Positions 7,915 to 31,841 of a DNA stretch of 64,000 bases are shown here, piece by piece. This stretch comes from Salinisphaera hydrothermalis C41B8 (GTDB lineage Bacteria; Pseudomonadota; Gammaproteobacteria; Nevskiales; Salinisphaeraceae), in assembly GCF_000732535.1 (NCBI RefSeq), contig NZ_APNK01000007.1, positions 62,001-126,000 on the forward strand. The letters run 5' to 3'. The first letter of the stretch is position 1, and each line of letters begins with the position of its first letter. Both the position numbers and the translations under genes were made by a program. The notes beneath the pieces were generated by a model. That model searched no databases. It had not been told where the DNA came from and saw only the letters and a list, made by a program, of their open reading frames with translations.

Positions 7915-8227
7915 CTAGGGCCTGTTGCCGTTTCGTGCGAGTCCGCGCCAAGCGCTCCCTGAAAATTAACTAGGGGCGGCAAGACGAGGTGTAGCGAGCG
8001 TGGCGCAGCGGGCCTACGCGAGAAAGCTACAACGCTGGATTGCCGTCGTGTCGTTAATTGTTGTGCGCTTGCCCCTTCGGGTTGGGCCGCCCAAAAAATT
8101 AACCAGGGGCGCCCGGCGGCGTTGCGAATCTGGGTCGTGGTACGCCCAGAGCCGGCGACTCGCGCCTTGCCGGACACGATTTGCGGACGCCAACGCGGCG
8201 CTCGCACGAAACCTCAACAGATCCTAG
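7915..8227. mobile_element. MITE-like element, copy 1 (inverted relative to copy 2)
   Basis: This 313-bp noncoding element is flanked by CTAG on both sides (7915-7918 and 8224-8227). Its ends are imperfect inverted repeats: CTGTTGCCGTTTCGTGCGAG on the left against the complement of CTCGCACGAAACCTCAACAG on the right. The interior matches the reverse complement of 31241-31556 closely over its whole length, including GCGCTCCCTGAAAATTAACT and TCGGGTTGGGCCGCCC. No transposase is encoded, so it would need one in trans. It lies between aceA and ald without disrupting a gene. Confidence 0.82.
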
Positions 8228-29962: not shown

Positions 29963-30498
29963 GCGACGCAGGAGCGAACGCCCGCCCGGCTTCGCAGCCG
30001 CCGGGCGGTATCGCGCCCTCATGGTTCGACCACCCGGACCCGGGCCAAGCGTCACAGCAGAACGTCGCCCCGACGACGCCTGACGTTACCCACGCGACCA
30101 CACAGGCCGGCACGACGCCGAGCAGCGGCGCGGACCTGCCGGGCAACCTGATCGGGCGCACCTCGATCGCGCTCATCGCCGTGATCGGCGTCATCCTGGT
30201 GTGTGCCTGGACACTCAAACGCCTCGGCTTTCAGCGTGATCGCGCCAGTCAGTCGCTCCCGATCGTGGCTTCGCGAAGCCTCGGTCAGCGTGAGCGCGTC
30301 GTGGTCATCGAGGTCGAAGACGAATGGCTGGTGCTCGGCGTGACGCCGCAGAACATCACTGCCCTGCACCGTCGTCCCGCACCTGCCGATCGAGACTCGC
30401 CCGACACGCCCCACGCAGCGCCGACCGGGGCCCGGCCGACCTTCGGCCAAGCGCTGGCCGAAAACCTGACACGCCTGACCGGGCGAGGCCGCTCGTGA
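29959..30498 (+). CDS. fliO: Flagellar biosynthetic protein FliO
   Basis: This 179-residue FliO is the assembly factor for the FliP pore. A Pro/Ala-rich N-terminal region (1-60) precedes one membrane helix (about 67-85, [15 protein letters not shown]). The cytoplasmic domain has [20 protein letters not shown] followed by [14 protein letters not shown], the conserved FliO core. The long N-terminal part before the membrane segment is unusual. The start overlaps fliN by 4 bases and the stop overlaps the fliP start. Confidence 0.9.
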
Positions 30499-31244
30499 TG
30501 ATGCGCCTGCTCGCATTCGTCTTTGGATTGTTCCTGGCCGGTACGGCCGCGGCCCAGACGACCGGCGGCTCAGGCCTGCCCGGCGTGATCAGTCAGCCGC
30601 TGTCGAGCGGCGGCACGGAATGGACCGTTTCGGTCCAGACGCTGGTGCTGTTTACCGCGCTGGCCTTCCTGCCGGCCGTCCTGCTGCTGATGACCGGCTT
30701 CACGCGCATCATCATCGTGCTCAGCCTGTTGCGCAGCGCACTCGGTACGCCGACCGCCCCGCCGAATCAGGTGCTGCTCGGACTGGCGTTGTTTCTGACT
30801 TTCTTCGTGATGTCGCCGGTGTTCCACAAGGTGTACAACGTCGCCTATCAACCGCTGTCGAACAACGACATCACCTTCCAGCAGGCCCTGGTGCGCGGCG
30901 CCGGCCCGATGCGCAACTTCATGCTGCGCCAGACCCGCGAACCCGACATCGCGATGTTCGCCAAACTCGGCAACGTTGGCCCGATTCAGACGCCACAGGA
31001 CACCCCCATGCGGGTGCTGCTGCCGGCGTTCGTCACCAGCGAGCTGAAAACCGCGTTCCAGATCGGCTTCACGATCTTCATCCCATTTCTGGTGATCGAT
31101 CTGGTGGTGGCCAGCGTGTTGATGTCGCTGGGCATGATGATGGTGCCGCCAGCGACCATCTCGCTGCCGTTCAAGCTGATGCTGTTCGTGCTGGTCGACG
31201 GCTGGACGCTGTTGATCGGTTCGTTAGCTAAGAGCTTTCACTAG
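30498..31244 (+). CDS. fliP: Flagellar biosynthetic protein FliP
   Basis: This 248-residue export-gate pore protein has a cleavable signal ([20 protein letters not shown]) and about four membrane helices. The conserved [20 protein letters not shown] and [19 protein letters not shown] are present. The C terminus [15 protein letters not shown] is where the family normally ends. The stop TAG (31242-31244) is part of the CTAG at the left edge of the MITE-like insertion. Removing the insertion plus one CTAG restores the same stop, followed by a 15-base gap to fliQ, so the protein is unaltered. Expression of fliQR downstream may be altered. Confidence 0.96.
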
Positions 31245-31556
31245 GGCGTGTTGAGGTTTCGTGCGAGCGCCGCGTTGGAGACCGCAAATCGTGTCCGGCA
31301 AGGCGCGAGTCGCCGCGTCGTGGCGTGCCACGACCCAGACTCGCAACGCCGCCGGGCGCCCCTGGCTAATTTTTTTATGGGCGGCCCAACCCGAAGGGAC
31401 AGGCGCCCACAAATTAACGACACGACGGCAATACAGCGTTATAGCTCTCTCGCGTAGAACGACTACGCCACGTTCGCTACGCCTCGTCTTGCCGCCCCTA
31501 GTTAATTTTCAGGGAGCGCTTGGCGCGGACTCGAACGAAACCTCAACACGCCCTAG
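31241..31556. mobile_element. MITE-like element, copy 2, inserted between fliP and fliQ
   Basis: The element proper spans 31245-31552 (308 bp) and is flanked by a direct CTAG repeat (31241-31244 and 31553-31556), the apparent target duplication. Its 23-bp terminal inverted repeats differ at one position: GGCGTGTTGAGGTTTCGTGC on the left and the complement of GAACGAAACCTCAACACGCC on the right. It encodes no transposase. CTAG (YTAR-type) duplication recalls IS5-group elements, an inference. On the operon strand it contains GCCGGG-CGCC-CCTGGC (31351-31366) followed closely by seven T residues, a possible weak terminator. Confidence 0.88.
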
Positions 31557-31571
31557 CGCAGGAGAGATCCG

Positions 31572-31841
31572 ATGACACCGCATACCGTAATGGATCTGGC
31601 CTATCAGGGCATGAAGCTGACGCTGATGATGGCCGCGCCCATGCTCGGCACGGCGCTGCTTTTTGGCTTGCTGATCAGCCTCTTTCAGGCCGCCACCCAG
31701 ATCAACGAAATGACGCTGTCGTTCATTCCCAAGATCCTGGCGGTATTCGTGGTGCTGATCATCGCCGGTCCCTGGCTGATCGGCGAGATCATGGACTTCA
31801 CCCGGCACCTGTTCCTGAATATTCCCAACCTGGTGCAATGA
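31572..31841 (+). CDS. fliQ: Flagellar biosynthetic protein FliQ
   Basis: This 89-residue two-helix membrane protein is part of the FliPQR export gate. QGMKLTLMMAAPMLGTALLF and ISLFQAATQINEMTLSFIPK are the conserved FliQ helices. AGGAGA lies 6 bases before the ATG and survives immediately right of the MITE insertion. Translation can therefore start normally even though the transcript now carries an extra 312 bases between fliP and fliQ. The stop overlaps fliR (ATGA). Confidence 0.96.
   Translation: MTPHTVMDLAYQGMKLTLMMAAPMLGTALLFGLLISLFQAATQINEMTLSFIPKILAVFVVLIIAGPWLIGEIMDFTRHLFLNIPNLVQ

Follow-up and report, generated by a model that had tools for sequence, protein, structure and literature searches.

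The fliP and fliQ genes of Salinisphaera hydrothermalis C41B8 lie within the window, the 64,000-nt stretch of DNA that we analysed, and are separated by a 310-bp MITE whose first base completes the fliP stop codon. The features of the junction, with positions counted from the first base of the window, are as follows.

30498..31244, + strand: fliP, start ATG at 30498 or 30501 (Pfam PF00813, E 1.6e-80 over 30504-31241)
31242-31244: fliP stop codon TAG, whose final G is base 1 of the MITE
31242..31243, no strand: left TA, presumed target duplication, inside the CTAG at 31241-31244
31244..31553, + strand: MITE, 310 bp, internal module class LLL, terminal inverted repeat (TIR) type CG/AG, the same at both ends
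31244..31261, + strand: left TIR, GGGCGTGTTGAGGTTTCG, common to an 860-bp IS
31290..31358, + strand: internal stem with nested hairpin, TCGTGGCGTGCCACGA (alignment columns 50-118)
31351..31376, + strand: terminator-like stem and T run inside the MITE, such sites being no more numerous than in shuffles
31536..31553, - strand: right TIR, inverted copy of the left end
31554..31555, no strand: right TA, presumed target duplication, inside the CTAG at 31553-31556
31560..31565, + strand: AGGAGA, probable fliQ ribosome-binding site, read directly and unaltered by the insertion
31572..31841, + strand: fliQ, intact (Pfam PF01313, E 2.5e-31)

The original prediction for this DNA placed a 308-bp element between two CTAG copies, and its coordinates and length are confirmed, as are the inverted repeats: the arms (31241-31267 and 31530-31556) extend over 27 nt with 96% complementarity, and the 23 bp inside the CTAGs contain one mismatch. 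The register that fits most copies of the family, GGGCG...CGCCC, gives instead a span of 310 bp (31244-31553) with a TA on each side. The pre-insertion state can be read as had been proposed, in that without the element and one CTAG the junction reads CAC-TAG, then 15 bases including AGGAGA, then the fliQ ATG at 31572. Both proteins were said to be left intact, and FliP and FliQ are indeed each recognized by Pfam. The longest ORFs overlapping the MITE, at 60-104 aa, are mechanical frames, and none is a transposase.

Related genomes

Of the 14 genus genomes, 8 have a FliQ match, counting the one from which the window comes, and in all the other seven of these the fliP-fliQ junction is short and has no MITE. 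This, together with the many copies elsewhere in the genome, bears out the claim of a MITE-like element and a real insertion. The proposed comparison with empty sites succeeded in part: the element is missing from 7/7 relatives with fliQ, but none of them has this junction with just one CTAG. In G007, the closest genome by FliQ (92%), the junction reads CATTGA. A CTAG without an insertion does occur at the fliP stop in three of the seven relatives (G003, G005, and G006), whose fliP extends two codons further. Two further insertions of the family are likewise absent from relatives, the one at locus L028 from G007 (one 618-column alignment, 79%) and the one at locus L013 from G001 (630 columns, 72%). 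At none of these three loci did we find the exact single-CTAG precursor, the flanks being too diverged for the duplication to be read.

The fliPQR block had been called essential, which holds for motility, yet 6 of the 14 genus genomes (G008-G013) have no FliQ match, two of which (G009 and G010) are <90% complete. Flagella may have been lost several times in the genus.

Copies of the family

We searched the genome of the window (4.28 Mb in 91 contigs) for further copies. BLAST with the element gave at least 92 rows, at least 38 of which cover at least 290 of the 341 query bases; 40 of the 167 first-look candidates from this search were scored. The nearest copy to the fliP MITE among those scored is 95% identical, so that the insertion, which had been suggested to be a recent event, is recent only in a relative sense. 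A 21-nt end motif, allowing up to 3 mismatches, matches the genome 171 times, and its reversed control 0 times. Pairing of ends by script, in stretches fetched around them and with solo ends not counted, produced 68 elements, namely 65 of MITE size (173-312 bp) and 3 of 860 bp. The exact length of 268 bp recurs in 27 of the 65. The family thus consists of short elements (below ∼600 bp) with TIRs, dispersed copies, a target duplication, empty sites, and no transposase gene, which are the features of bacterial MITEs.

The size classes arise from three optional interior modules in a mostly nested order (SSS 30, LSS 9, LLS 13, LLL 8, and others 3, among 63 copies), and every common module class is found both with CG ends and with TC ends. 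The window holds a second copy of the family at 7918..8224 on the - strand (307 bp, locus L014, BLAST row C7:69913-70227), which has the unlike ends GGGCCTGTTGCCG and GGATCTGTTGAGG and is one of 4 mixed-end copies among the 63.

Matches to the element occur in 21 of 61 genomes: 14/14 in the genus, 2/3 in other genera of the family, and 5/44 elsewhere in the order. A genome from another family of the order (G040) has 12 matches; there, and in a small number of further genomes, bases of the MITE's 5' portion as far as about base 119 are found at 72-76% identity, partly without ends. The core of the MITE may therefore be older than the genus. No DNA matches to the MITE were found in plasmids and phages.

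Target site and duplication

In the GGGCG...CGCCC register, flanks are identical over 2 bp in 47 of the 68 copies, and over 3-6 bp in none. We compared three registers of duplication, finding that a 2-bp TA fits 47/68 copies, a 3-bp CTA 41/68, and a 4-bp CTAG 25/68. Since TA fits the most copies, and 11 copies read CTA-element-TAA, TA is the best-fitting duplication; we have dropped the 4-bp CTAG duplication that was originally put forward, though CTA is close behind TA (41 versus 47). The contexts of the copies with TA on both sides (n = 46) are CTAG 26, CTAA 11, CTAC 2, TTAG 2, CTAT 2, GTAG 1, TTAA 1, and TTAT 1. Copies from other genomes have TA on both sides in 14 of 26 cases, 11 in CTAG and 3 in TTAG. 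(This set of 26 includes one spurious pairing, the 222-bp L189.) The duplicated target is probably TA, with a preference for the CTAG context. For the fliP site itself the other copies suggest a TA duplication, no single-copy precursor having been seen in relatives.

TA is missing from one or both sides in 22 of the 68 copies; three of these (L003, L072, and L073) have an IS110-family element at the end without TA, and the remainder are unexplained or decayed. Four MITEs are separated from a neighbouring MITE end by no more than TA, CA, or A (L016:1798-1803, L029:1504-1507, L006:1499-1502, and L003:1500-1502). Each insertion leaves CTAG at both ends and so would create a new preferred target.

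The likely partner element

The original prediction expected an IS5-like element with the same terminal repeats, and the genome has one in three 860-bp copies. One copy (L043) has an intact ORF of 267 aa and the other two have broken frames. The L043 transposase matches NCBIfam NF033580 (IS5 family) with E 1.2e-76 and Pfam PF01609 with E 4.2e-17; its open frame has G beside the presumed catalytic E, where both broken copies have V. Plasmid-encoded proteins are about 61% identical to it, among them one from a Raoultella plasmid with the annotation ISPa67 (60.7%), and the best named match to the L043 transposase is from Salinisphaera sp. Q1T1-3. The partner is presumably an ISPa67-like member of the IS427 subgroup of the IS5 family, a subgroup that we take to use 2-bp TA targets.

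The MITE and the 860-bp IS have 17-18 identical terminal bases at each end, and elsewhere no match better than E 0.27. Because only the ends are in common, we rule out that the MITE is a plain deletion of this IS. Relatives of the IS in Pseudomonas, Nitrosomonas, Methylomonas, and others are 855-861 bp long, with ends GGGnnTGTTG.. and TA/CTAG targets. Among 26 full-length transposase relatives picked from 80 loci, 16 have such ends and TA on both sides in the register chosen by script, 6 more do after a shift by eye, and 4 do not; the script score favoured TA, so that this test was not blind. No transposase match was found in 6 of the 14 genus genomes, all of which have MITE matches, the one-contig G007 among them. 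The 860-bp IS5-family element is likely the autonomous partner of the MITE, and the shared ends suggest that the MITE is mobilized in trans by a transposase of the L043 type.

Insertion at stop codons

By the calls of our home-made gene caller, a simple codon-usage method trained on the window, the TA of 16 of the 68 elements falls in the stop codon of a flanking gene, with L058 a weak case. CTAG occurs 37 times in the window as compared to 75.4 in shuffles, about half as frequently, and 8 of the 37, the fliP site included, are at stops; several of the intergenic CTAGs are in or beside MITEs. A tally by hand of the orientations of the 16 stop-overlapping copies gave 9 versus 7, without bias. 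The element's first base, G, completes the TA, and TAG is therefore formed again from either a TAG or a TAA stop. Insertions in stop codons are tolerated because TAG is re-created in this way, and insertions at gene ends survive because CTAG is scarce and often at stops. The idea of fliP as a special, selected site does not hold up against these counts (16/68 elements and 8/37 window CTAGs at stops). On sequence grounds, the hit in the fliP stop, which has done no visible harm, is explained by target chemistry, without special selection for the site.

Matched ends and weakly linked interiors

For counts of end matching and linkage we used 63 of the 68 elements, leaving out the 3 IS and the 173-/174-bp pairings. 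In 59 of the 63, left and right end agree in TIR type, as defined by bases 4-5 and 11-12, against a mean of 30.7 and a maximum of 43 in shuffles. Although the left and right ends lie ∼300 bp apart, r2 between them is up to 0.86, a value reached by 0 of 5000 permutations. Within the interior, linkage drops from 0.29 for sites less than 25 bp apart to 0.12 at 25-50 bp and to 0.03-0.05 at greater distances, and linkage between TIR and interior is 0.02. A tree built from the interiors shows no clustering by TIR type: the 13 TC/AG copies need 13 changes (shuffled mean 11.9), and all three TIR groups together need 16 (shuffled 14.7), of which strongly supported branches make at least 7 unavoidable. 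Agreement of the two ends is less frequent in copies from other genomes (19/26) than in the copies of this genome. We infer from these patterns that copies have exchanged their interiors, through recombination or gene conversion that rarely extended to the outermost bases, at the limit of homology.

The two ends of a copy could instead be alike through arm-to-arm correction, by palindrome-templated repair or template switching at the hairpin base, rather than as inherited TIR lineages with a shuffled interior. The excess of same-type ends and the scatter of TIR types over the interior tree would both be expected from such correction, and there are individual copies that carry a rare TIR variant at both of their ends (L061_1762, L168, and L156), the TIRs having 4 rare double changes, in these 3 copies, and 15 single. 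At L004:1502-1808, moreover, CTGGG replaces the usual CGCCGCG and makes an imperfect interior hairpin perfect, which looks like a template-switch correction. Yet the interior pairs have 0 rare double changes and 58 single, and we have discarded correction of the whole palindrome as unsupported there. The arm-to-arm r2 also decays inward, from 0.83-0.86 at bases 4-5 through 0.69 at base 12 to about 0 at bases 17-20, as protection of the edges would also produce, and the rare end GGGCCTGTTGATG of L168 recurs at one end of the L074 IS, so that it may be an inherited lineage. We regard correction of the ends as possible but rather unlikely, and favour inherited TIR lineages around an exchanging interior.

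Fold and possible effect on the transcript

Folded as single-stranded RNA, the 316 bases that include both CTAGs reach -165.3 kcal/mol, whereas shuffled versions average -116.5 (z -8.55). Among 35 aligned copies (30 of the 63, plus 5 from other genomes), 14 of the 89 pairs of the consensus structure have changed on both sides, and the interior pairs have 21 double changes versus 0-1 in slid controls. Because a palindromic element keeps its pairs by descent of variants too, we do not claim an RNA function for the MITE. We found no promoter-like sites in the element, and its one terminator-like site is not significant (0.6 in shuffles, sd 0.7). Rfam covariance models gave 0 matches on 31150-31650 up to E 1. 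The insertion would likely come at the cost of a highly stable hairpin of 310 nt within the fliP-fliQ transcript.

It is conceivable that the insertion was kept as useful, with its hairpin controlling the amount of FliP relative to FliQ/FliR through mRNA processing, stability, or attenuation, as proposed for ERIC in Yersinia mRNAs. The position of the MITE within a co-directional gene block, the strong fold, the double changes that keep its stems, and the terminator-like stem with its T run would fit such a role, and ERIC is reported to affect upstream transcripts in Yersinia (PMC2229807). We nevertheless think it quite improbable: the empty junction in 7/7 relatives gives no sign of a conserved insertion, the terminator-like site is at shuffle level and no promoter-like site was found, and the stop-overlapping copies are without the orientation bias attributed to ERIC. 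The remaining proposal, in which nothing was inserted and this stretch would be an ancestral spacer between the genes or a structured RNA belonging to the flagellar operon, could draw on the strong fold but has practically no probability, being refuted by the relatives that lack it and the many genomic copies, and having no Rfam match.

An IS110-family element at MITE ends

An IS110-family element of about 1207 bp (PF01548) lies directly at a MITE end, following CGCCC, in 3/3 copies found: L239:313-1519 (G000:C15), L240:3330-4536 (G000:C14), and L073:1-484 (G000:C40), where G000 is the genome of the window and the third copy is cut by a contig end. TAG follows the far end of the element in both copies where that end was read. 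The genome has one further PF01548 match, its fourth (C1), which belongs to a different element with no MITE end in its locus. The 190-nt leader of the IS110-family element contains ACACGCCCT, a 9-base identity with the MITE end that crosses the insertion point; a 9-base leader match spanning the junction arose in 84 of 20000 shuffles, and any 9-base match in 347 of 20000. IS110 elements are reported to have a guide RNA (PMC11187229, PMC11208160). The leader match is what a guide RNA of that type would need.

Comparison with known systems

The partner resembles ISPa67-like IS of the IS5 family in its transposase family, its length (855-861 bp), its GGGnnTGTTG.. ends, and its TA/CTAG targets, whereas the MITE has no notable ORF and shares only the terminal 17-18 bp. 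ERIC (RU-1/IRU) is a short palindromic element with TA termini and TA duplication, intergenic and often co-transcribed (PMC2229807 and PMC2759123), RUP of pneumococcus is a 107-bp element that an IS with matching TIRs mobilizes in trans into TA targets (PMC2229807), and the Correia elements (CREE/NEMIS) of Neisseria have a 24-bp TIR, TA termini, and many copies (PMC2229807).

The Salinisphaera MITE is also short and palindromic, with TA ends and TA duplication, but it is set apart from ERIC by its length, about 268-312 bp as compared to 127 bp, and by its other ends. A further difference is that its partner transposase can be recognized by the ends, and its copies at stops have no orientation bias. 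De Gregorio et al. 2005 are said to have described ERIC copies in Yersinia that overlap stop codons, with orientation effects. The logic of mobilization is that of RUP, with an IS5-family partner here in place of IS630-Spn1. The Correia elements, which we liken to the family by description only, have TIRs, TA termini, and many copies in common with it and differ in size and host.

Discussion

What we observe, at this locus and across the genome, is a numerous family with matched ends and, in most copies, flanking TA, an IS that has these ends too, and a fliP-fliQ junction that is empty in seven relatives. We consider it very probable (about 0.92) that the element is a non-autonomous Salinisphaera MITE, moved by an IS5-family DDE transposase that would recognize ends of the GGGCGTGTTGAGGTTTCG kind and join them to TA, preferably in CTAG, duplicating the TA on insertion. 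When the TA is that of a TAG or TAA stop, TA plus the G of the element would make TAG upstream, and the gene would keep its stop; in the fliP case both proteins and the fliQ ribosome-binding site were spared. The same target rule covers 16 of the 68 copies, and would account for an operon hit exactly at a stop without visible harm.

The family appears to be undescribed in Salinisphaera, as we found no published description of it in the open-access literature that we searched. In kind it is an ordinary MITE, paired with a likely partner of the IS5 family. Being old, the family would consist of copies whose ends stay matched as TIR lineages and whose interiors are exchanged among copies. Ends that are tied around a shuffled middle offer a testable picture of MITEs that keep working ends while their bodies are exchanged.

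We tentatively suggest a wider reading, which may well prove wrong, in which a stop-codon-safe transposon colonizes gene ends, its own ends forming one inherited or mutually corrected unit and its middle recombining freely, with an IS110-family element seemingly aimed at those ends by its leader RNA. If this were true, the mobile elements of the genome would make up a small, layered ecosystem, with the unit of selection lying in the ends of the MITE and not in its body.
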